From assembly GCF_000695095.2 (NCBI RefSeq), contig NZ_CP011454.1, positions 4,092,001 through 4,156,000 on the forward strand: a stretch of 64,000 nt of DNA, given 5' to 3'. Position 1 is the first letter of the stretch. Each line of letters starts with the position of its first letter. Position numbers and translations under genes: made by a program. The stretch is from Gemmatimonas phototrophica. Its GTDB lineage: Bacteria; Gemmatimonadota; Gemmatimonadetes; Gemmatimonadales; Gemmatimonadaceae. This document shows, piece by piece, positions 4,815 through 64,000 of the stretch. Below the pieces are notes generated by a model that was not told the origin of the DNA, ran no database searches, and worked only from the letters and a program-made list of their open reading frames with translations.

Positions 4815-4934
4815 GTAACAGCGTCATGGGTTATGGGTCAGCAGGTTACCGAGTAACCGCGGGAACAGCGGTGTCGCGCAGTTTCACCGCAGTAACGCGG
4901 TAACCCAATAACCCATAACCCATGACGCCGTTAC
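4815..4934. repeat. 120-bp imperfect palindrome, short type
   Basis: Two arms of about 48 bp (4815-4863 and 4886-4934) are inverted copies. Both begin GTAAC(A/G)GCGTCATGGG, followed by TTATGGG and a GGTTACCG block. The short loop carries GGAACAGCGG, which is the complement of the CCGCTGTTCC found in the centres of the large palindromes near 28.1, 36.5 and 63.7 kb. The left-arm sequence reappears at 63644-63690. It lies between divergent genes, so it could also act on transcription there. Confidence 0.85.
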
Positions 4935-13080: not shown

Positions 13081-16000
13081 TTACTGTCCGGTGATCTCCT
13101 CGGCGCTCGTCTGGCGCGCCTGCGGGGTGTCGGCCGGCTTCACTTCAATGACCGGGTGCCCGTGCTTCTTGAGAATCTCGTCGATGGGCGGAAGGAGCTC
13201 CTTGTACGCCTTTCGCAGCTCCACGAGATAGACCTCGAGCTCCTTGGTGAGCAGCTCGAACACCTGCTGCGACTGTTTGGTGGGGCGCGCTTCGGTGCTC
13301 CCCACCACACCGGCCAACGCCGCGATCTGGTTGTTCACCTTGATCGGGAAGTTGAGCGGGTCCTGGCCGGACTGATTCTTCACCTGATAGATCTGCGCTT
13401 CCATCTCGCTGATCTTGGCGTCGAGCGACTTGACCAGGCCGGCGTAGGCGGCCGAATCGCTGCCCACCTGGTTCATGCGCGTAACCGCCTGCTGGCGCAC
13501 GTTGCGCACGGTGCGCACGGCGTCGTTGGCGTCGGTGGTGCGATCGCGGATAGCCATGAGCAGCTTGTACTGCGCCACCAGATCCAGCGGCGTCGCGTCA
13601 CTGCGCGGATCCTTCTTCACCAGCAACTTGGCATCGCCAGCGGGAGCGCCGTCAACGAGCAAGCGCACGGTGTAGTTGCCCGGCAGTACCAATGGACCCG
13701 TGGTCACACCGGCCCACATGATCATGCCGTTGAACGTGGTGGCATCCGGCTCGCGCAGGTTCCACGAGAAGGTGTTCATCCCCACCGTGTTGGTGGGCGG
13801 ACGATCACCGGCCACCGCCCGACGGCCCCCGGGACCACCGGCAGCGACGACTTGATCGCTCGAGAACGACTTCACGGTGCGTCCGGTGCTGTCACGGAAC
13901 TCGATCGTGACCTTGCCGGCCTTCTCCTTGAGCCAGTAGTACACAATCGCGCCGTTGGGCGGATTCTGCCCCACCGGGCTGGTGGGCGCACCAATCTGGA
14001 AGCCACCGCCCCAATTAATGCGATACGACGGACGCGGCGTAAACAAATGCGCCTTCTTGGCCAGCACCTCGGCCGACAGCTGACGCAGCACACCGATGTC
14101 GTCGATCACGTAGAACGAACGACCATGCGTTCCGGCAATGAGATCGCCTTCCTTGATGGCGAGATCGTGCACCGGCACGATGGGGAGATTGCGCTTGAGC
14201 GAGAACCACGTCGCGCCGTCATCGAGTGAGGCGTACACACCGCGCTCGGTGCCGGCGAAGAGCAGCCCCGGACGCACGTCGTCTTCGCGAATCACGCGCG
14301 TAAACTCGGTGTTGGGGATGCCCGTGTTGATGCGCGTCCACGTCTTGCCAAAGTCAGACGTCTTGAAGAGGTACGGCTCCTGGTCGTCCATCTGGAACCG
14401 ATTGGCCGCCACATACGCCGTGCCGGCGTTGAAGTGCGAGGCCTCCACAATGGAGATGCGCGCCCACTCCCGTTCCTTGAGCAGCGGCGGCGTCACGTTC
14501 GTCCACGACAGGCCACCGTTGCGCGTCACGTGCACCAGGCCATCGTCGGTCCCGGCCCAGATCGTTCCCTTGGCAATGGGCGACTCGGCAATGGCGAACA
14601 CCGTGCCGTAATACTCCACGCTCGTCTGGTCCTTCGTGATCGGACCACCCGACGGACCCAGCGTGCGCGGATCGTTGCGCGAAAGGTCAGGCGAAATGGC
14701 GGTGTAGCTGTCGCCTTCATTGGTGGTCTTGAAGAGCACACTCGATCCCACATACAACGTCTTGGGATCGTGCGGGCTCACCACGATGGGGAAGGTCCAC
14801 TGCATGCGGTACTTCGCATCTTTCGCGTCGTGCCCCATGGGATTGAGCGGCCACGGATTCACGTCGCGCTCCATGCCGGTACGCATGTCCTTGCGCGTAA
14901 GGAAGCCGCCGTAGCTGCCGGCAAACACGATGTCCGGATTGTTCGGCAGCGCAGCAATGAAGCCCGACTCGCCGCCGCCGGCGTCCTTCCACATATCGAT
15001 CGTGATGCCACCACGCGCCCGCGACGGACCGCACAGCGTGCTGTTGTCCTGCTGCGCGCCGCAGATCTGATACGGGAAGTGATTGGTGGTGGTGACGTGA
15101 TAGAACTGGGCCGTGGCGAAGTCCTGCGCCGTCCACGTTTTGCCCGTGTCCACGCTCACCGAGGCACCACCGTCGTCGCCTTCAATCATGCGGCTTGGAT
15201 CATCGGGGGCAATCCACAGGTCGTGCGAGTCACCGTGCGGCGGATTGAGGTTGCTCCACGTCTTGCCGGCGTCCTTCGACACCTGGAACTGCACGTTTGA
15301 CGCGTACACCACGTCGGCGTTCTTGGGGTCGGCGTAAATCTTGGTGTAGTACCACGCGCGCTGACGCAGCTTGCGTTCGTCGTTCACACGCTCCCACGTG
15401 GCGCCGGCATCGTCGGAGCGATACACACCGCCCTGATCGGCTTCAATGAGCGCGTACACGCGGCGCGGATTGGCGCCGCTGACGGTGATGCCGATATTGC
15501 CCCAAAGGCCGGAGGGGAGGCCGGGATTCTTGGTGATTTCGGTCCAGGTGTCGCCACCATCAGTGGTCTTGAACATCCCCGAACCCTTGCCGCCGGAATA
15601 GAGCATCCATGGCTTGCGGTACGCCTGCCAGAAGCCGGCGTAGAGCACGTTGGGGTTGCTCGGGTCCATGACCAGATCGGCCGCGCCGGTGGAGTCATCG
15701 CGGAAGAGCACCTTCTGCCACGACTTGCCGCCGTCCTTGCTGCGGAACACGCCGCGCTCGTTGTTGGGGGCCCACACATGCCCCTGCACTGCGGCGTACA
15801 CCAGATCAGGATTGGTGGGGTGCACGCGCACCTTGGCAATCTGCCGCGAATCGTTCAACCCGATGTTCGCCCACGTCTTGCCACCATCGGTGGTCTTCCA
15901 CATGCCGTCGCCGTGCGACACGTTGCCGCGAATGGCGAACTCCCCACCGCCCACATACACCACGTCCGGATTGCTGGGGGCCACCGCCACGGCACCTACA

Positions 16001-16332
16001 GTGCCGCCAAAGTAGCGGTCGGTCATGGGCATCCAGCTTTCACCGCCATCGGTGGTCTTCATGACCCCGCTGCCGGTGGTGCCCATCCAGTACTCCTTGG
16101 GGCGGGCCGCCGATCCGGCCACGGCCACGGAGCGGCCACCGCGGTAGGGGCCAATTTCCCGCCAGCGCACGGCGGAGAGCGCGGCGGTATCGAACGAGGC
16201 GGCCAGCGGGGACGGCGCCGCGGCGCGAGCCACGGGGCGAGCCGCCGTGGGGCGGGCGGTCTGCGCTGACGCGGAGGCCAACGGGACCATCGCGCCGAGC
16301 AGCAGAGCGAAGCGCGGGGAGAAACGCATCAC
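13081..16332 (-). CDS. secreted VPS10/sortilin-type beta-propeller protein (Asp-box repeats)
   Basis: A 1083-residue exported protein with an N-terminal signal peptide ending near ASAQ. Residues about 50-780 contain at least ten Asp-box motifs (for example KTTDGGESW, KTTDGGKTW, RSKDGGKSW, RSDDAGATW, KTSDFGKTW, ASLDDGATW), the signature of BNR/VPS10 ten-bladed propellers. The C-terminal part has a FlgD-like strand unit (GNYTVRLLVDGAPAG) and a helical coiled-coil tail. Such proteins are often annotated 'glycosyl hydrolase', but the sialidase Arg triad and FRIP motif are not evident, so binding or peptidase-associated roles are as likely. The gene at 57557-60733 is a paralogue of the same architecture. 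It is divergent from the SPFH operon. Confidence 0.88.
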   Translation of the reverse strand: MMRFSPRFALLLGAMVPLASASAQTARPTAARPVARAAAPSPLAASFDTAALSAVRWREIGPYRGGRSVAVAGSAARPKEYWMGTTGSGVMKTTDGGESWMPMTDRYFGGTVGAVAVAPSNPDVVYVGGGEFAIRGNVSHGDGMWKTTDGGKTWANIGLNDSRQIAKVRVHPTNPDLVYAAVQGHVWAPNNERGVFRSKDGGKSWQKVLFRDDSTGAADLVMDPSNPNVLYAGFWQAYRKPWMLYSGGKGSGMFKTTDGGDTWTEITKNPGLPSGLWGNIGITVSGANPRRVYALIEADQGGVYRSDDAGATWERVNDERKLRQRAWYYTKIYADPKNADVVYASNVQFQVSKDAGKTWSNLNPPHGDSHDLWIAPDDPSRMIEGDDGGASVSVDTGKTWTAQDFATAQFYHVTTTNHFPYQICGAQQDNSTLCGPSRARGGITIDMWKDAGGGESGFIAALPNNPDIVFAGSYGGFLTRKDMRTGMERDVNPWPLNPMGHDAKDAKYRMQWTFPIVVSPHDPKTLYVGSSVLFKTTNEGDSYTAISPDLSRNDPRTLGPSGGPITKDQTSVEYYGTVFAIAESPIAKGTIWAGTDDGLVHVTRNGGLSWTNVTPPLLKEREWARISIVEASHFNAGTAYVAANRFQMDDQEPYLFKTSDFGKTWTRINTGIPNTEFTRVIREDDVRPGLLFAGTERGVYASLDDGATWFSLKRNLPIVPVHDLAIKEGDLIAGTHGRSFYVIDDIGVLRQLSAEVLAKKAHLFTPRPSYRINWGGGFQIGAPTSPVGQNPPNGAIVYYWLKEKAGKVTIEFRDSTGRTVKSFSSDQVVAAGGPGGRRAVAGDRPPTNTVGMNTFSWNLREPDATTFNGMIMWAGVTTGPLVLPGNYTVRLLVDGAPAGDAKLLVKKDPRSDATPLDLVAQYKLLMAIRDRTTDANDAVRTVRNVRQQAVTRMNQVGSDSAAYAGLVKSLDAKISEMEAQIYQVKNQSGQDPLNFPIKVNNQIAALAGVVGSTEARPTKQSQQVFELLTKELEVYLVELRKAYKELLPPIDEILKKHGHPVIEVKPADTPQARQTSAEEITGQ

Positions 16333-22137: not shown

Positions 22138-24726
22138 ATGCGTCATCGTTCTTTTACGCTGGCCGCCGCCGGGCTGACGCTCGGCGCCTGCGCGCCCAAG
22201 CCGGCGCCCGCGCCAGCCCCTACTCCCACTCCGGCTCCCAGTGGGGCACCTACCCCCGCCGCCGGACGTCCCGCTGGCGCCCCCGGCGGATTTGGCCAGG
22301 GTGGCGCGGGTGCCCAGGGTGGCGGTGCCGCCGGTGGTCAGCAGGATCCGCAGCCGCGTCCCTATGGCGCCGTCATCACGCCGCGGGCCACGACCAAAAA
22401 CGGCGTGTTCAAGGTGCACCAGGTGGGCGCGCGCCTGTTCTTTGAAATTCCGCGCGCCGAGTTGGGCAAGGACTATGTGATTGTCACCACGCTGGCCGGC
22501 ACGCCAGACGAAATCGGCATTCGCGGCACCCAGGGTGGCAATAACCTCGTGCGCTTCGAACGTCGCGACAATCGCATCTTCGTACGCGAGGCCGATTACC
22601 GCGACATCATCGCCGACACCGCCGCGTCGCAGAAGCTCGCCGCCGATCTTATTGGCGTGACCAAGATTCTCGCCGCGCTCAACATCGAAGCATACGGGCC
22701 GGACAGCAGCGCGGTCGTGGAAGTGACGCGCATGTTCACCGGCGGCGTCGCCGAATACACCGCCCTTGGCCGTCGCGCCCAGGTCGATGCGGCGCGCTCG
22801 TACATCGAGAAGTTCGCCGCGTACTCGCGCAATGTGAACGTCACCGCCGTGCAGAGCTTTACGCCGCAGGGTGGCGCGCCCGGTGGTGGTGGTGGCTTCC
22901 CCGGCGCGGCCGGCGCGGCGACCGCTCCAACCACGGAGAAGTATACCTTCTCCATTGCCAAGCTCCCCGAGAACCCCATGAAGCCGCGTCTGCTCGACGA
23001 GCGCGTGGGCTACTTCGGCGTGCAGCAGCGTGATTTCAGCGGCGCCACGCAGCGCGTGGAGACGCGTCGCTTCATTGGCCGCTGGCGTCTCGAGTGCAGC
23101 GACAAGAAGGTCGGCAACCTCTGCGTCCCCATCAAGCCCATCACGTACTACCTCGACCCCGCCACGCCGGCGTGGATCAAGCCGTGGATCAGGAAGGGCA
23201 TTGAAGACTGGCAGGTGGCCTTCGAAGCCGCCGGCTTCTACAAGGGCATCATCGCCGCCGAACCGCCGAAGAACGACCCCGACTTCTCGGGTGAAGATGC
23301 CACCGTCGCCATGGTGCGCTGGCTCCCCAGCGCCACCGAAAACGCCGTTGGTCCGTCACTGCGCGATCCGCGCACCGGCGAAATCATTGACGCCGATGTG
23401 CAGACGTATCTCAACGTGATGAACCTCAACCGGTCGTGGTACTTTACGCAGGTGGGCCATCTCGACAAGCGCGCGCAGAAGCTGCCGTTCCCCGATACGC
23501 TCATGGGGCGTCTCGTGGAATACGTCACGGCGCACGAAGTAGGACACACGCTGGGCTTCCCGCACAACTTCAAGGCGAGCTCCATGTATCCCGTGGACTC
23601 GGTGCGCAGCCGCACGTTCGTGAAGACGATGGGGCACACGCCCACGCTCATGGACTACTCGCGCTTCAACTACGTCGCGCAGCCGGAAGACAACATCGCG
23701 CTCGACGATCTCATTCCGAAGGTCGGACCGTATGACAAGTACGCCGTGATGTGGGGCTACACGCCCATCCCTAACGCCAAGACGCCGGAAGACGAAAAGC
23801 CGACGCTGGAGAAGTGGACGCGGATGCAGGACACCATCCCGTGGTATCGCTTTGCGAGCGACGCCGGCGCGGGCGGTGCGGATCCGGGCGAACAGTCGGA
23901 AGCCGTCGGCGATGCCGACGCCGTAAAAGCCACCACGCTTGGCGTGAAGAATCTCAAGCGCACGATGGCGCTGCTGGAAGGCGCCACGGCGTGGAAGGAC
24001 GGCACGACGTTCGACGACCTCGAAGAGCTTTACGGCCGCACCGTGGGTCAGTGGGCCACCGAGATGGGGCATGTCGCGCGCATTCTCGGCGGTCAGTACA
24101 AGCAGGAGAAGTACGTCGGCCAGAAGGGCCCGGTCTATCGTCCCGTGGAGCCGTCGCGCCAGAAGGACGCGCTGCAGTTCCTGCTGGACAACGCCTACAC
24201 GACGCCCACGTGGCTGCTCAACCAGGACATCCTGCGCAAGATCGAGCCGAGCGGCAGCCTGAATCGGGTGGGCAACGCGCAGGCGCGGTCGCTGGCGGCA
24301 CTGGTGGCGAACGAGCGCCTGCAGCGCATGGTGGAAATGGAAGCGATGGCCACGAGCAAGGGCGAGGTGTATCCGGTGGCCGACATGCTGGCCGATCTGC
24401 GCGCCGGACTCTGGAAGGAGATCGGCACGGGCGCGCCCATCGACGCTTTCCGTCGCCGGCTGCAGCGCGTGTATCTCGAAGCGATGGCCAGCAAGATCAA
24501 TCCGCCCGCTGCACCCGCCGCCGCACCGGGCGGTGGTGGCGCCGGCGGACGTGGCGCCGCCGCTCCGGTGGGCACTGCAGACTTCCGTCCGATCCTGAAG
24601 TCGGAAATGCGTGCCCTCGATGCGGACCTCGCGACGGCGATCGGCAAGACGAGCGATCGCATGAGCAAGGCGCACCTGGAAGACGCGCGGGACCAGATCA
24701 GGAAGATGCTGGACAGCGACAAGTAG
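22138..24726 (+). CDS. zinc-dependent metalloprotease lipoprotein (DUF5117/DUF5118/DUF4953 type)
   Basis: An 862-residue lipoprotein. The signal ends in the lipobox LGAC (Cys about 19), then a Pro/Ala/Gly-rich linker to about residue 75. The DUF5118/DUF5117-like beta region follows, and then the metzincin-like catalytic part with HEVGHTLGFPH. His466, His470 and His476 should bind zinc, and Glu467 is the catalytic base. The conserved NFKASSMYP and YVAQPEDN stretches are also present. A helical C-terminal region ends the protein, with a second Gly/Ala-rich linker near residue 790. It acts at the outer membrane or periplasm on unknown proteins. The next gene, 25250-27862, is a full-length paralogue. 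Confidence 0.9.
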   Translation: MRHRSFTLAAAGLTLGACAPKPAPAPAPTPTPAPSGAPTPAAGRPAGAPGGFGQGGAGAQGGGAAGGQQDPQPRPYGAVITPRATTKNGVFKVHQVGARLFFEIPRAELGKDYVIVTTLAGTPDEIGIRGTQGGNNLVRFERRDNRIFVREADYRDIIADTAASQKLAADLIGVTKILAALNIEAYGPDSSAVVEVTRMFTGGVAEYTALGRRAQVDAARSYIEKFAAYSRNVNVTAVQSFTPQGGAPGGGGGFPGAAGAATAPTTEKYTFSIAKLPENPMKPRLLDERVGYFGVQQRDFSGATQRVETRRFIGRWRLECSDKKVGNLCVPIKPITYYLDPATPAWIKPWIRKGIEDWQVAFEAAGFYKGIIAAEPPKNDPDFSGEDATVAMVRWLPSATENAVGPSLRDPRTGEIIDADVQTYLNVMNLNRSWYFTQVGHLDKRAQKLPFPDTLMGRLVEYVTAHEVGHTLGFPHNFKASSMYPVDSVRSRTFVKTMGHTPTLMDYSRFNYVAQPEDNIALDDLIPKVGPYDKYAVMWGYTPIPNAKTPEDEKPTLEKWTRMQDTIPWYRFASDAGAGGADPGEQSEAVGDADAVKATTLGVKNLKRTMALLEGATAWKDGTTFDDLEELYGRTVGQWATEMGHVARILGGQYKQEKYVGQKGPVYRPVEPSRQKDALQFLLDNAYTTPTWLLNQDILRKIEPSGSLNRVGNAQARSLAALVANERLQRMVEMEAMATSKGEVYPVADMLADLRAGLWKEIGTGAPIDAFRRRLQRVYLEAMASKINPPAAPAAAPGGGGAGGRGAAAPVGTADFRPILKSEMRALDADLATAIGKTSDRMSKAHLEDARDQIRKMLDSDK

Positions 24727-24746
24727 GGGGTTTGTTCGGAGTGAAT

Positions 24747-24786
24747 GGGGGCAGCGGACGTCGTCCGCTGCCCCCGTTCCTTTTTG
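24747..24786 (+). terminator. intrinsic terminator after the first metalloprotease
   Basis: Two 14-base arms (GGGGGCAGCGGACG and its complement, 24747-24775) flank a single central base. A T-rich tract with five consecutive T follows. It lies 20 bp past the stop and before the large palindrome. Confidence 0.88.
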
Positions 24787-24790
24787 CACG

Positions 24791-25152
24791 GATCTGAGAC
24801 CGAGACCGCCGACTCCAGACTGCTAGACGTGGACGATGCGAGTTGTGATGATCGAGGTGCGATGGATATCGAATGTGAGAGGGTCGAGACAACGACGACG
24901 ATGAGAAGTCCGAGCACTGGCGTCCGCACGGAACTGCCGCGACTCCCGACGCGCACCAGCGCGAAGCGCGCCGTGCGCCCCCCGCCCCCAACCGGCCGGT
25001 GTGGGGCACATCCGCGCGGAGGAACTGCTCGGACTTCTCATCGTCGTGGTTATCTCGAGACTCTCACATTCGATATCCATCACCATTCGATCGTCACAAC
25101 TCTCACCGTCTGCCTCTGTCAGTCTGAGGTCTCCGATCTCGCCCCCGCGATC
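24791..25152. repeat. large palindromic intergenic element, copy A
   Basis: The inner palindrome runs 24861-25081, starting and ending with GATGGATATCG and its complement. Arms of about 73 bp match closely, including the GAATGTGAGAG and GATGAGAAGTCCGAGCA blocks. Looser outer arms (GATCTGAGAC-type) extend to about 24791 and 25152. The centre carries GTGGGGCAC at 25001-25009 on the plus strand. It fills most of the 523-bp gap between the two metalloprotease genes; the last 97 bp before the second gene show no clear feature. Confidence 0.87.
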
Positions 25153-25249: not shown

Positions 25250-27862
25250 ATGCGCTTTCGCTCCACGCCGCTGGTGCTGGCCGGTTTGGCTTTTGCCGCC
25301 TGCAAGCCCGCCAAGCAGTTCGTGTCGGCGCCCGCTCCCACGCCTGCGCCTTCCGGCGCAAACACCCGGCCCGCCCCGCGCGCGCCCGTGCCTGGACAGC
25401 CCACCCCCACGCCGGGCCAACCCGGCAATGGCCAGCCGCCCGCCGGCCTGCCCAACATTCCGGGCCTCGCCGGCGCCCTTGGCGCCCAGGGCGAGCCCAA
25501 TCCGCGCCCGTACGCGCAGGTCATCACGCCGCGCGCCAAGAGCAAGAAGGGCGTGTTTGACGTGCACCAGGTGGGTTCGCGCCTCTATTTCGAAATCCCC
25601 GCTTCGCAGGTGGGCAAGGATTTCGTGATCACCAGCGTGCTCGCGGGCACCCCCGCCGGCATTGGCCTGAACGGCACGTTGGGCACCGATCGGCTCATCC
25701 GGTTTGAACGTCGCGAGAATCGCATTCTCGTGCGCGATGTGCGCTACAACAATGTGGCCACGGACAGCCTGCAGCAGACCCGGCGCGCCATGTCGCTGAT
25801 CGAGTTCTACCCGATCATTGCCTCGCTCAACGTCGAAACGTACGGCAAAGACAGCGCCGCCGTCGTCGAGGTGACGCGCATGTTCACCGGCGGCGTGCAG
25901 GAGTTCATTGCCAACGGCCGTCGTGCCACCGTGGACGCGTCGCGCTCGTACATCGACAAGTTTGCCGCGTTCTCGCGCAACGTGAACGTGACCGCCATTC
26001 AGACGTTCACGCCCATTGGTGGCGCAGGTGGCATTCCGGGACTTCCCATTCCGGGCTTTGGCGGCGCCGCACAGGCCACCACCGAAGCGTACACCTTCTC
26101 CATTGTCCGGTTGCCGGACGAGCCCATGATGCCGCGGCTCATGGACGCGCGCGTGGGCTACTTCGGTGAAAACAAAACCGATTTCGGCTCCAACGAGCAG
26201 CGCGTGCTGCCGCGCCGCTACATCGCGCGCTGGCGCCTTGAGTGCTCCGACCAGAAGGTCGGCAATCTCTGCGCCCCCAAGAAGCCCATCACGTACTACG
26301 TGGACCCGGCCACGCCCAAGTGGCTCGTGCCCTTCGTGAAGGCGGGCATTGAGGAGTGGCAGCCGGCGTTTGAGCAGGCCGGCTTTGCCAAGGGCATCGT
26401 ATCGGCCGACGCGCCCAATGATCCCGATTTCTCGGGTGAAGATGCCAGTGTGGCCATGGTGCGCTGGTTGCCGTCGCCGGTGGCCAACGCCGTGGGCCCC
26501 AGCACCACCGATCCGCGCACCGGCGAAATCATCGACGCCGACGTGCAGATGTACCACAACATCATGGACCTCCAGCGCAACTGGTACTTCACGCAGGTGG
26601 GTCATCTGGACCCGCGCGCGCAGAAGTTCCCGTTCCCCGATTCGCTCATGGGGCGCCTGGTGCAGTTCGTCGTGGCGCACGAAGTGGGGCACACCCTCGG
26701 CTTCCCCCACAACTTCAAGGGCAGCTCGATGTATCCGGTCGACTCCATCCGCAGCAAAACGTGGGTGGCGAAGATGGGGCACTCGCCCAGCATCATGGAC
26801 TACGCGCGCTTCAACTACATCGCGCAGCCGGAAGACGGCATCGCCCTCGGCGATCTCGTGCCGAAGGTGGGCCCGTACGACCGCTACGCCGTGATGTGGG
26901 GGTACAAGCCCATCCCGGGTGCCAAGACGTCGGAAGACGAAAAGGCCACGCTCGACAGCTGGGCGCGTATGCAGGACAGTGTGCCCTGGTACCGCTTTGC
27001 CAGCGACGCCGGTGCCGGCGGCGCCGATCCGGGTGAGCAGTCGGAAGCCATTGGCGATGCCGATGCCGTGCGCGCCACCACGCTGGGCTTCAAGAACATC
27101 GCCCGCGTCATGAAGCTCGTGGAAGCCGCGGCGACGAACAACAAGCTCGCCGACTACTCGTTGCTGCGTCAGACCTATGGCGAAGTGATTGGCCAGTGGG
27201 CCACCGAAGCGGCGCACGTCACGAAGATCGTAGGCGGTTCGGACAAGCAGGAAAAGGCCGTGAGCCAGGGCGGTCCCGTCTTTACGCCGGTGCCGCGCGC
27301 CCGTCAGAAGGCGGCCGTGAAGTTCCTGAACGACGAGGTGTTCACCACGCCGTCGTACCTCATCAACGTGCCCACGCTGCGCAAGTTCGAAGCCGACGGC
27401 AACATCAACCGCATCACCGGCGCACAGGCGCGTTCGCTCTCCAGCCTCGTGAACAACACGAAGCTGCAGCGCATGGTGGAAGCGGAAGCCACGGCGTCCA
27501 ACAAGGCCGACGTGTACTCGCTGGGCGAAATGCTCACCGATCTGCGTCGCGGCCTGTGGAAGGAGATCTACGGCGGTCAGCCGGTGAACGCCTATCGTCG
27601 TCGCCTGCAGACCACGTACCTCGAGGCCATGGCGAGCAAGATCAAGCCTGCGCCGCCCAGTGCGCAGGACGCACTGCTGGCCCAGTTCCTGGGGGGTGGC
27701 ATCGTGAACACCCGTGATTTCCGTCCCCTTCTCAAGGACGAAATGCGTGTTCTGGACCGGGAGATCGCCGGCGCCGTGGCCCGCACGAGCGACCGCACCA
27801 CGCGGGCGCACCTGCAGGACGCGCGGGACCAGATCAAGGCCATGCTCGACACCGACAAATAA
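25250..27862 (+). CDS. zinc-dependent metalloprotease lipoprotein, paralogue of the preceding gene
   Basis: An 870-residue lipoprotein with lipobox AFAAC near residue 18, followed by a Pro-rich linker. Architecture and most motifs equal those of the 22138 gene: RYNN/DYRD-type strands, VEVTRMFTGGV, WRLECSD.KVGNLC, YFTQVGHLD.RAQK, and the zinc site HEVGHTLGFPH with His477 as first ligand. The internal Gly-rich linker near residue 255 is shorter, and the second linker differs (FLGGGIVNTRDFRP). The pair looks like a tandem duplication that diverged. It has its own strong terminator, so the two genes are probably separate transcription units. Confidence 0.9.
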   Translation: MRFRSTPLVLAGLAFAACKPAKQFVSAPAPTPAPSGANTRPAPRAPVPGQPTPTPGQPGNGQPPAGLPNIPGLAGALGAQGEPNPRPYAQVITPRAKSKKGVFDVHQVGSRLYFEIPASQVGKDFVITSVLAGTPAGIGLNGTLGTDRLIRFERRENRILVRDVRYNNVATDSLQQTRRAMSLIEFYPIIASLNVETYGKDSAAVVEVTRMFTGGVQEFIANGRRATVDASRSYIDKFAAFSRNVNVTAIQTFTPIGGAGGIPGLPIPGFGGAAQATTEAYTFSIVRLPDEPMMPRLMDARVGYFGENKTDFGSNEQRVLPRRYIARWRLECSDQKVGNLCAPKKPITYYVDPATPKWLVPFVKAGIEEWQPAFEQAGFAKGIVSADAPNDPDFSGEDASVAMVRWLPSPVANAVGPSTTDPRTGEIIDADVQMYHNIMDLQRNWYFTQVGHLDPRAQKFPFPDSLMGRLVQFVVAHEVGHTLGFPHNFKGSSMYPVDSIRSKTWVAKMGHSPSIMDYARFNYIAQPEDGIALGDLVPKVGPYDRYAVMWGYKPIPGAKTSEDEKATLDSWARMQDSVPWYRFASDAGAGGADPGEQSEAIGDADAVRATTLGFKNIARVMKLVEAAATNNKLADYSLLRQTYGEVIGQWATEAAHVTKIVGGSDKQEKAVSQGGPVFTPVPRARQKAAVKFLNDEVFTTPSYLINVPTLRKFEADGNINRITGAQARSLSSLVNNTKLQRMVEAEATASNKADVYSLGEMLTDLRRGLWKEIYGGQPVNAYRRRLQTTYLEAMASKIKPAPPSAQDALLAQFLGGGIVNTRDFRPLLKDEMRVLDREIAGAVARTSDRTTRAHLQDARDQIKAMLDTDK

Positions 27863-27920: not shown

Positions 27921-28259
27921 AGAGGTGTGACCTCAGAATCCGACGATGCGATGTCCGAGGTCGGACGATCGAGTGTTGCGATGGATATCGATGTCGGATA
28001 TGCGATAACTACGACGGTGAGAGGTCCGAGTACTTCGTCCGCCTGGAGAGTGCCACTTACCGTTCTCGTTCGACTGCGGGGACGGCCGCTGTTCCAGCGG
28101 CGTCCGTGGGGGGTACGGTCGTGCGGACGTAAGTACTCGCACTGCTCATTGTCGTAGTTGTCTCGACCCTCTCACATACGATATCCATCGCACCTCGGGC
28201 GTCGCAACGCTCGCACCTCAAGATCCCGCCTCGGCCGCCGGCGATCTCAGATCCCGCCC
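27921..28259. repeat. large palindromic intergenic element, copy B
   Basis: The inner palindrome spans 27980-28189 with GATGGATATCG at the left and its complement at the right. Both arms contain AACTACGAC and GAGTACTT, variants not seen in the other copies. The centre holds a small stem CCGCTG-TTC-CAGCGG (28086-28100) followed by a GTGGGGGGTAC form of the core on the plus strand. Outer arms with GATCTCAGATC-type sequence reach about 28259. It fills the gap between metalloprotease 2 and the rhodanese gene. Confidence 0.87.
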
Positions 28260-28601: not shown

Positions 28602-28898
28602 GTGAGAGCTCGGATCTGAGTTCGCCGATCTGAGATCTGGAGGTGAGAGATTGCGAGTCGCGAAGGTGCGATGGATATCGATGTCGGAGGACCGACAACC
28701 ACGACGATGAGAGGTCCGAGTAGTGGCCTCCGCACGAAGCGCCCCCGCTGGTGTGGGGCACTTCCGTGCGGACGCCAGCACTCGGACCTCTCATCGTCGT
28801 AGTCATCTCGACCCTCTCACCCTCGATATCCATCACATCTCGGGCCTCACAACGCTCGCACCTCCCAATCCCGCCTCGGCAATCTCAGATCTCAGAAC
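28602..28898. repeat. large palindromic intergenic element, copy C
   Basis: The inner palindrome runs 28670-28834. Arms share GATGGATATCGA, CGACGATGAGAGGTCCGAGT and TCCGCACG blocks. Outer arms are especially clear here: GATCTGAGATCTGGAGGTGAGAG on the left is mirrored by CACCTCCCAAT and AATCTCAGATCTCAG on the right. The core GTGGGGCAC is at 28753-28761, plus strand. It lacks the small CCGCTG stem of B, D and E. It fills the whole space between the rhodanese stop and the convergent DUF2490 gene stop. Confidence 0.87.
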
Positions 28899-36361: not shown

Positions 36362-36363
36362 GA

Positions 36364-36700
36364 CGGGTAGATCGCCGAAGCGGGACGGCGATCTGGAGGG
36401 GAGAGCGTTGGGCGTCGCGAGGTGCGATGGATATCGAGGGTGAGAGGCCCGATGACAGCGAGGTGTGAGGTCCGAGTGCTGGCGTCTGCGCTCCCGTGCC
36501 GCACACGGGCTTGGGGAAACAGCGGGGACGACCGCTGTTCCAGCGGCGTCTGTGGGAGGCACATACGGGCGGAGGCAACTACTCGGACCTCTCACCATCG
36601 TGGTTATCTCGACCCTCTCACCTTCGATATCCATCGCACGGTCTCGCCTCCCAACTCGCAACTCCACGTCCCAGATCTCAGATCTCCCGTCTCACCCGCG
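36364..36700. repeat. large palindromic intergenic element, copy D
   Basis: The inner palindrome spans 36426-36635, bounded by GATGGATATCG and its complement. Arms share GGTGAGAG and TGAGGTCCGAGT blocks. A central stem CCGCTG-TTC-CAGCGG (36532-36546) precedes a GTGGGAGGCAC form of the core (36552-36562). The right outer arm (CCAGATCTCAGATCTCCC) contains the stop codon of the convergent 36678-37241 gene, so the element overlaps coding sequence there. Its left end starts just after the M42 peptidase stop. Confidence 0.87.
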
Positions 36701-57560: not shown

Positions 57561-60500
57561 GCGATCGGCCCCTTCCCCTTCGCCTTGCCAATCACGCCCG
57601 GCACGTTGTTCGCCTTGAGCAGGGCGTTGAACGCCGGCACATCCACGTTTTCGATCTGCTCCACTTCAGCGCGAATGGCACTCCACACCTTCTCCAACTC
57701 GGCCAGACGATCCTTCACCGGCTGCGTGAGCGCCGTGTTCCCTTCCACCTGCCCCATGAGGAAGCCGTACTGCCCGTTGATCCCGTTGGCGTAGTTGATG
57801 ATGTCCTGCCCGTTGGCCGCCTTGGTGGTCAACCGCGGGTCCATCTTCTCCAGCTTGCCATTCAACGAACGGCCAGCCTTGGCAATGGTATCAGCGGCGC
57901 TGGTTTCCTTCGCACGCGCCACGTAGCCCTGCACCTGCGTCTTCACATCACGCAGCCGCAGCACGGACTCGTGAATCTCGGTAATGCGCGTCGCCAGCAG
58001 GTTGGCCACCGAATCGCGCTCCGCAATCACGGCCACCGGCGCATCAATGCGCGGATCCATCTTCACCACGAGTGGCTGCGTTTGCACCGTGCTTCCCACG
58101 GTGAGCCGAACGGTGTAGTTGCCCGGCGTAACTCGCGCGCCGCCGTCGCTCGGTGCGCCGAAGAGCAGCACATTGCCCACGCGCGTGGGCATGGGGCGGC
58201 GCAGGTTCCACGTGAGCGTATTCAGTCCCGCCTTGGCGGTGAGTCGGCTCAGGGAATCCTTGGTCGCGTAGGAGCGCACCACCATGTTCTTGCTGTCGAG
58301 AAACTCGACCGACACCGCCGTGGCGCTGTCCGGCGCCGCGGCCAGTCGGAAATACACGGTCGCACCGTTGGGCGGATTCTTGCCGGCGTTTTGCGGCGTA
58401 CCAAAGCCACCGCCACCCGCAAAGAGAATGGCCTCGCGTGGTGCGTACAGATGCGCAGTGGCCTTCTCCACACTCTCGGCCCGCTGACGCAGCACCGACA
58501 GGTCGTCGAGAATCCAGAACGCGCGCCCTTCGGTGGACGCAATGAGATCGCCGTGCTTCACCTGCAAGTCCGTAACCGGTACCACCGGGAAGTTGCCGCG
58601 GAATGGCAGCCACTGCGCGCCCGCATCGTACGACACGTACACACCCGTTTCGGTCCCCGCGTACAACAGCCCTTTCTTCACCGGGTCTTCGCGCACGACA
58701 CGCACCGGCTCTCCATCACGCAGGCCATTCACGATGCGCGTGAAGGTGGCCCCGTAATCCTTCGATACGAAGATGTGCGGCGTGGGATCACCCACGCGGT
58801 CCTTGCGGAACGACACGTACAGCGTGGCCGGATCGTGCGGCGAGATGGCAATTTCATTCACGAGGCCATCGCCCCACGCAGCCGGCGTGACGTTCGTCCA
58901 CGTCTTGCCACCGTCGCGCGTGCGCTGAATGAGACCGTCGTCGGTGCCCACGTACAGTGTGGACGCATCGTGCGGTGACTCTTCGATCACCACAATGGTG
59001 GCATACACCTCGCCACCAGCGCCTTCGTTGGTGATGGGGCCACCACCCCACCCCTGCCGCGTCTTGTCGTTGCGCGTCAAGTCGCCGGAGATCGGCGTCC
59101 ACGCCTGCCCACGATTGGTGGTGCGGAAGAGCACGTTGCCGCCGTGGTACACCACCTTGTCGTCGTGCTGCGACACCTCAATGGGCGCCGTCCAGTTGAA
59201 GCGGTACTTCGTCTTGTCGGTAGGCTCGGTGAGGTTCATCTCGGGCCACGGCATGATGGCGCGGGTGAGCCCCGTGTTGGCATCCTGCTCTTCGATGATG
59301 CCCTGATAGCAGCCACCGTACACGTAGCGCGGGTTCTTCGCACTCACACCCATGTTGGCGCTTTCGCATCCCGGGCCTTCCTTCCAGTCGCGCAACCCGA
59401 TCGCGCCGCCGTCGCTGCGGGACGCAATGATGACCGAGCTGTTGTCCTGCTGGCCGCCGTACAGCTTGTACGGGAAGTCGTCGTCCACCGCCACATGGTA
59501 GAACTGCGACGTAGGCTGGTTGTCCTGCGTGCTCCAGCTCTTGCCACCGTTCAATGAAATGCTGGCGCCACCGTCGTTGGCATTGATGAGATACCGCGAA
59601 TCACGCGGGTTGACCCAAACGCCATGATTGTCGCCGTGCATGGCCGGCAGCACGGCAAACGTGCGGCCACCATCAATGCTCTTGAGCAACGGCGCGTTGC
59701 TGATGTACACCACGTCGGCGTTGGTGGGGTCGGCCGTGATGTGCATGTAGTACCAGGAGCGCGTCTGAATCAGCCGGTCGCCGCTCAGCAGGCGCCACGA
59801 CTTGCCGGCGTCATCGCTGCGGAACAACCCACCGGCTTCCGCTTCCACAATGGCGTACACACGGTCGGGATTGGCCGGCGACACGGACACGCCAATCTTG
59901 CCCATCAGCTTGGGCAGTCCTTCGGTGAGCCGTTTCCAGGTATCGCCGCCATCGGTGCTCTTCCACATGCCGCTGCCGGCGCCGCCGGAACGCACCATCC
60001 ACGGCGTACGCTGGTGATCCCAGAACGCCGCATACAGGATGCGCGGATTGGTGGGGTCCATGGACAGGTCACTGGCGCCGCTGGTGGCGTTCTCTCCCTT
60101 CAGCAGCAGTGTCCACGTCTTACCGCCGTCGGTGCTGCGGTAGATGCCACGATCGGTGGTCCCTTTCCAGCGATCGCCCTGCACGGCGGCGTACACAACA
60201 TCCGGATTGGTGGGGTGCACCCGCACCGCCGAGATCTGCCGTGACGCCTCCAGCCCCGTCCGGGTCCAGGTGCGCCCCTGGTCGGTGCTCTTGTACATGC
60301 CGTCGCCGTAGGTGCTCGACTGGCCGCGAATGGCGTGCTCGCCGCTCCCCACGTACAGCACGTTCTCATCGCTCGGCGCCACGGCAATGGCCCCAATGGA
60401 GCTCGACGTGAAGAAGCCGTCGGAGATGTTGCGCCAGTTCATGCCGGCGTCGTCGGTACGCCAAAGCCCCCCGCCGGTGTAGCCGGCGAAGTACGTCATG

Positions 60501-63635: not shown

Positions 63636-63873
63636 GCGATGGAAACAGCGTCATGGGTTATGGGTTATCGGGTGACCGAGTAACTGCGGTAAGAACTGGG
63701 ACGACCGCTGTTCCAGCGGTGTCCGTGAGGGGCACGTCCCGTGCGGACGCCAGCACTCGCACCTCGCATCGTCGTGGTTGTCTCGACACTCTCACCCTCG
63801 ATATCCATCGCACCTCGCGACTCGCAACGCTCTCACCTCCACGTCTCACCTCGGCCGTCTCACGTCTGTTGTC
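63636..63873. repeat. large palindromic element, copy E (chimeric, with a short-type left half)
   Basis: Only the right half of the large palindrome is intact. A CCGCTG-TTC-CAGCGG stem (63705-63719) and the core GTGAGGGGCAC (63725-63735) are followed by the right arm ending in the complement of GATGGATATCG at 63799-63809, then outer-arm sequence. On the left, GCGATGGA (63636-63643) breaks off and continues as AACAGCGTCATGGGTTATGG, the arm of the short palindrome near 4.87 kb. The right end abuts the stop codon of the gene at 63874. Confidence 0.82.
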
Positions 63874-64000
63874 TCATTCCGGGGGCAGGACGCGGGTGAT
63901 GGCCGTGAGATCTCCTCCCCGCCGCGCCAGTGCCCGCGTTTCGCGCCAGTACACGAGTGTGCCCAGTGTCATGACCACCAGCCAGACCAGCGTGGAGTGC
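63874..64000 (-). CDS. partial membrane protein, C-terminus only
   Basis: The last 41 codons of a gene that continues past the window edge. They read one hydrophobic helix (TLVWLVVMTLGTLVYW) followed by a basic, Arg-rich cytosolic tail ending TRVLPPE. No family can be named from this fragment. Its stop lies directly at the end of palindromic element E. Confidence 0.6.
   Translation of the reverse strand, partial: HSTLVWLVVMTLGTLVYWRETRALARRGGDLTAITRVLPPE

Follow-up and report, generated by a model that had tools for sequence, protein, structure and literature searches.

The 64-kb window (the whole stretch of 64,000 nucleotides that was analysed) belongs to a complete chromosome of 4,716,552 bases that starts at dnaA (a gene recognised by eye) and carries two photosynthetic reaction-centre genes (puf-bearing). 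Between two tandem paralogous genes of the window lies a long imperfect palindrome, copy A of a family that we call alpha (Table 1). Its arms of 116 nt each are 82% complementary and stand 109 nt apart, and its fold energy is -226.9 kcal/mol (z -16). Further alpha copies (B to D), a composite of an alpha arm with an arm of a second type, beta (copy E), and a beta-beta palindrome lie in the same window. Rfam gave no match at the gathering score across the 64 kb. A consensus scan for terminator-like sites (a GC stem followed by a T run) found none inside copies A, B or C, and a simple intrinsic terminator was rejected for these copies on that ground.

Table 1. Alpha and beta elements of the window, with the neighbourhood of copy A.
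Feature	Position	Strand	Remarks
Gene upstream of copy A	22138..24726	+	862 aa ORF
Intrinsic-terminator-like hairpin of the upstream gene	24743..24779	+	Ordinary; 17 pairs, tail CTTTTTGCAC; outside the element
Alpha copy A, left arm	24801..24916	+	Core GATGGATATCGA at 24861-24872
Alpha copy A, spacer	24917..25025		Without the usual central GACGCCGCTGGAACAGCGG hairpin module
Alpha copy A, right arm	25026..25141	-	Core at 25070-25081
Gene downstream of copy A	25250..27862	+	870 aa ORF; paralogue of the upstream gene
Alpha copy B, paired arms	27930..28235		Cores 27980 and 28178; outer limits approximate
Alpha copy C	28602..28898		Cores 28670 and 28823; occupies the whole spacer of convergent genes
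Alpha copy D, paired arms	36363..36680		Cores 36426 and 36624; between convergent genes; outer limits approximate
Copy E, composite	63641..63880		Beta arm (63641-63690) opposite an alpha arm (core 63798)
Beta-beta palindrome	4815..4934		CGTCATGGGTTATGGGT...; arms 4815-4862 and 4887-4934

On the chromosome the alpha core pattern GRTGGATATCGANNNTGAGAG has 81 matches, 76 of them with at most two mismatches, and the reversed control has none. Five matches with three mismatches at 2.19-3.02 Mb were considered chance and left out. The loci fetched comprise 31 arm pairs in inverted orientation and a further 19 solo arms (about 50 copies), in a census that is based on the core pattern and may miss diverged arms; similarity searches within the genome scored the best 40 of 77 and the best 40 of 66 candidates. 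Elements are ~250-340 bp long, with arms of about 100-130 nt. Each arm begins at the neighbouring gene's stop codon with a variable outer segment, followed by a near-invariant core, a mid segment (two main types) and an inner segment (four types, P, Q, S and U). The centre that comes next frequently contains a small hairpin, which may point either way (b in 15, a in 7, both in 1 and none in 8 of the 31 copies). The beta arm type (CGTCATGGGTTATGGGT; CCCATAACCCATGACG) has 42 matches in the genome and builds its own palindromes as well as composites with alpha arms, most near 0.80-0.93 Mb. By coordinates, nine solo alpha arms, including that of copy E, stand opposite a beta arm. At one locus (L077:1-5501, source genome 1229800-1235300) two alpha arms in inverted orientation, separated by ~770 bp, flank a small predicted gene, and a third arm lies nearby.

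Alpha elements lie directly after stop codons. With gene orientation taken from our own crude gene caller, all 31 paired copies are intergenic: 14 between convergent genes, 16 between tandem genes, none between divergent genes and one with an uncalled neighbour. The 19 solo arms are distributed 6, 11 and 2, and the 74 element-free spacers of the same loci 6, 55 and 13, over the same three classes. Compared with these spacers, paired copies show an excess of convergent (Fisher P 2e-5) and a deficit of divergent (P 0.018) placements. Of 48 stop codons adjoining an element, 18 read TGA with GA directly after, versus 5 of 109 in other genes (P 4e-7); in many cases the end of the element therefore provides the stop codon or overlaps it. 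All 50 alpha loci fall outside 1.85-3.17 Mb, the ter region opposite the origin. Such a gap arose in 0 of 20000 random placements if copies are treated as independent, and has P 0.05 if they are treated as 19 clusters. The scarcity agrees with that published for Gemmatimonadota: of the repeats counted in Gemmatimonas phototrophica by PMC11237797, in the part considered here, 86 lie outside the high-strand-bias region that surrounds ter and 4 within it. A single beta pair does lie within the interval, at 2.60 Mb.

It had been proposed for copies A and B that copy-specific variants are often common to both arms, as expected if base pairing is under selection or the arms are homogenised. The string quoted for copy A is real (GATGAGAAGTCCGAGCA at 24900-24916, its reverse complement at 25026-25042) and its variant is present in both arms, but arms of further copies carry the GAGAAG variant too, and the coincidence therefore proves little. 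Likewise, AACTACGAC and GAGTACTT are present in both arms of copy B, but the stretch between them differs (in arm orientation, GGTGAGAGGTCC on the left and AATGAGCAGTGC on the right). Covariation was assessed across the family by permuting right arms among copies, the resulting chimeras standing in for R-scape. One pair with arms only 66 bp apart (1466701) was included in the 31-copy identity test, has no inner type in the module test, and was left out of the 10-column scan and of the Mantel, mismatch, duplex-energy and tract tests.

Concordance between the two arms is zoned. In the outer arm (-45 to -3 from the core GATGGATATCGA) identity is 0.653 within copies versus 0.588 between copies (z 5.5, 0 of 5000 permutations, 31 pairs), and the far outer arm behaves similarly (z 3.4, 2 of 5000). 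Over whole arms of the 31 pairs the values are 0.713 and 0.687 (2 of 5000), the core being invariant. In a 10-column scan the concordance is highest between -20 and -6 (z 4.5), with a second maximum between -60 and -51 (z 4.1). Outer duplexes are also more stable than those of chimeras in an alignment-free comparison (-47.4 versus -38.9, z -6.3, 0 of 10000), and the longest shared tract of the outer arm reaches 10.9 nt versus 8.3 nt by chance (z 6.1). In the mid arm the longest shared tract is likewise extended (13.5 versus 10.5 nt, z 3.8, P 0.0006), but neither identity site by site (+21 to +50; z 0.6) nor duplex energy (P 0.09) is significantly raised there, which counts against homogenisation. 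The mid module type is equal in both arms of 16 of 30 copies, with 17.2 expected. The inner arm goes the other way. Site-by-site identity at +51 to +72 has z -0.9 (loop side z -0.6) and the longest shared tract z -1.5; two overlapping windows of the 29 scanned, which together span +50 to +64, show arms less alike than chance (z -2.2 and -2.4, P 0.012 and 0.005), and inner duplexes are weaker than in chimeras (P 0.038). With inner-type classes that were defined after inspection of the data, only 2 of 30 copies carry the same inner module in both arms versus 8.7 expected (P 0.002). Covariation is real at the copy A site and is beyond chance for the outer arm and the mid-arm tracts, where the proposal of shared variants holds; as a general statement it is wrong for the inner arm, which takes in the inner part of the string quoted for copy A.

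The original prediction was to be checked against common descent, and outer-arm covariation exceeds it. Similarity among left arms correlates only weakly with similarity among right arms (Mantel r 0.17, P 0.11 for the outer arm; r 0.08, P 0.22 for the whole arm), so that descent of entire copies from common ancestors does not account for the outer concordance and is unsupported as its cause. Outer arms of copies less than 60 kb from each other resemble one another scarcely more than those of distant copies (0.601 versus 0.591); regional homogenisation among neighbouring copies was set aside as negligible. Mismatches, which were not oriented by transcription, show no greater strand asymmetry of the G-U type than chimeras do (74 versus 92, chimeras 76 versus 95). 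With the same limitation on orientation, transversion mismatches in the outer arm are depleted (242 versus 311 in chimeras), whereas transitions are not (166 versus 171). Each common inner-type pair occurs either way round with respect to the centre, and the inner modules have therefore been reshuffled.

Among 60 relatives, clear alpha relatives at two mismatches or fewer were found only in the congener G004 (nine matches, core GATGGAAATAGACAWTGAGAG). The family exists in species-specific versions; scattered matches to the alpha pattern in 12 other genomes look like chance. The nine usable pairs of G004 show weak concordance in the outer (P 0.027) and mid (P 0.012) segments. Inner avoidance is not seen in these nine pairs (P 0.44), which counts against it. 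Comparison of the source genome with G004 gave alpha loci with both flanks matched at 223989/L126 and 1231152/L124, and a match of one flank only at 3168092/L141. At 223989/L126 both arms have changed alike between the two genomes. The copy D locus in relatives shows a synteny break without a clean empty site. Set against the defined termini of a MITE, the outer ends of alpha fade into stop codons.

In three relatives (L160-L162) the site of copy A is occupied by an unrelated long palindrome, gamma, directly after another stop codon. Gamma is present in the source genome (G000), G006, G009 and G018 at positions matched by flanks. We arranged its copies by hand into 13 orthogroups, six of which include G000, and excluded matches shorter than 300 bp. 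Of 41 species comparisons, 10 align better with the centre inverted than direct at a score margin of 10; the difference is large in two of these, both from orthogroup 9, and smaller in the others. In the clearest case, G009 versus G018 in orthogroup 9, identity rises from 0.826 in direct alignment to 0.903 after inversion of the centre. Substitutions polarised with G000 as outgroup (6 of the 13 orthogroups; some changes common to two ingroup species are counted twice) fall on 93 of 3658 Watson-Crick, 14 of 136 G-T, 43 of 478 mismatched and 28 of 449 unpaired positions; the slow rate at paired sites may reflect site-to-site rate variation. Single changes at mismatches restore Watson-Crick pairing in 17 of 33 cases versus 10.8 expected (P 0.02, with the same double counting). 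Across ten G006-G018 pairs there are 26 double changes versus 9.5 in a slid control, of which 10 keep Watson-Crick pairing when about one third would do so for random double changes. Unpolarised pairwise counts and majority-of-three polarisation confuse breaks with restorations and were set aside.

Gamma elements hold two inward-facing terminator-like hairpins, usually with different stems, and their position is conserved across the four Gemmatimonas genomes. Read by eye from printed rows, 10 of 10 copies in G000 have one stem of the GCGCCCGYCGG type and one other, and none has that type on both sides (P 0.004); in the copy L240 at 1641 a second stem is not clearly recognisable. An automatic comparison of the 18 copies that passed the filter found no stem avoidance (intra 6.44, inter 5.98). 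One orthogroup has nearly equal stems on both sides in G006 and G018, which counts against inner avoidance.

We give about an even chance to a reading in which alpha elements are long imperfect palindromic repeats at gene 3' ends whose arms are matched mainly by arm-to-arm tract copying, with the innermost modules escaping. A limited set of interchangeable arm modules would supply the parts of each element. One arm would then be copied tract-wise onto the other, by template switching during replication or by gene conversion inside the element, and the same copying could account for flipping of the centre. The choice of template switching as the copying step is suggested by sequence comparison: such switching is reported to homogenise the arms of inverted repeats and to invert their spacers (PMC8604942, in the part drawn on here), and we find tract-wise homogenisation in the outer and mid arms of alpha and spacer inversion between relatives in gamma orthologues. 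Of the two causes originally offered, homogenisation fits better, because shared variants lie in tracts, gamma centres are inverted and G-U mismatches show no asymmetry beyond chimeras. Selection for pairing along the whole stem is contradicted by the inner arm, where duplexes are less stable than those of chimeras and module types of the same kind avoid one another. Selected base pairing in a transcribed or extruded hairpin, with arms covarying by compensatory substitution, is an unlikely source of the concordance, even though outer duplexes are stabilised, copy A folds very stably, the outer mismatches that are depleted are transversions and not transitions (which can wobble on one strand), pair-restoring changes in gamma exceed expectation and the copies lie where transcript 3' ends would be. 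In addition to the inner arm, the tracts and the unoriented G-U counts, it is opposed by the double changes of gamma orthologues, which are not enriched for compensatory ones. We consider it improbable that the concordance is due to descent alone, from a small number of master elements with arms in agreement from the outset and inner pairs passed on as cassettes. Such descent would suit the unusual centre common to copies 1849531 and 3870098, the outer variants common to the adjacent copies 3535269 and 3536635, and the species-specific versions, which imply amplification or genome-wide homogenisation; against it stand the weak left-left versus right-right correlation, the slight effect of distance between copies and the reshuffling of inner modules.

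A role as bidirectional terminators or insulators between convergent genes, which pairing and inner differences alike would serve, is compatible with any origin and is possible, if on the doubtful side. It draws on the convergent placement of 14 of 30 paired copies versus 6 of 74 element-free spacers (divergent, 0 versus 13 of 74) and on the paired hairpins of gamma, but 16 of 30 paired copies lie between tandem genes, copies A to C have no terminator-like site and a separate terminator precedes copy A. By inference, alpha would act at gene 3' ends as a hairpin or insulator. Within the copying model, the innermost modules are probably kept different because two identical ones would pair with each other or leave the middle of the palindrome too perfect; the case for such selection is weaker than that for arm homogenisation. 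Quite unlikely, in our judgement, is an elaborate form of the model in which outer arms are continually rewritten to match, inner hairpins are held different, one for each direction of transcription, to avoid cross-pairing, and the centre flips in place, so that the elements would form an invertible, self-correcting family of 3'-end insulators evolving in concert within each Gemmatimonas species.

REP, BIME and REPIN elements are extragenic palindromes with units of 20-40 bp that bear a GTAG/CGTC tag and occur as inverted pairs and mosaics at gene 3' ends. Alpha resembles them in its extragenic place at gene 3' ends, its palindromic form and its inverted and mosaic combinations, with 31 paired copies, alpha-beta composites and beta-beta pairs, but its arms reach ~130 nt and its copies number tens. 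A link to the Y1 (RAYT) transposase was rejected for the source genome and G004, in which PF01797 has no match; 10 of the 31 genomes searched have one. ERIC (127 bp) and YPAL/RU-2 (168 bp), as outlined in PMC2229807, are enterobacterial palindromic intergenic miniature repeats that are co-transcribed with their neighbours. Alpha is likewise an intergenic palindromic repeat of one to a few hundred bp, but differs from these in phylum and sequence, is about twice as long and is modular. Template-switch-corrected quasipalindromes, so far as PMC8604942 and PMC7202029 describe them, are likewise imperfect inverted repeats with homogenised arms and, as in gamma, inverted spacers; alpha differs in being present in many copies and in having a zone refractory to homogenisation. 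The best reading of alpha is an interspersed palindromic repeat with homogenised arms, a known kind of element, that is unusually long and modular and has an inner zone resisting matching.

Alpha also shares avoidance of the ter region with the Gemmatimonadota repeats of PMC11237797. The considered part of that paper describes no repeat sequence, palindrome, family or gene-end position, and the word start 'palindrom' is absent from its main text. In the literature searched on palindromic, intergenic and inverted repeats of Gemmatimonas (largely the main texts of freely accessible papers), these elements are undescribed beyond those counts. Our data give sequence content to repeats that have so far only been counted. 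They also provide a natural multicopy system that separates homogenisation of inverted-repeat arms from selection for pairing, because each predicts different zones of one stem, and they caution that arm covariation in a repeat does not on its own point to an RNA structure under selection. Elsewhere in the window, 14079-16083 and 58483-60394 have divergent direct repeats in common, with units of ~31-76 nt, and resemble genes for repeat-domain proteins.
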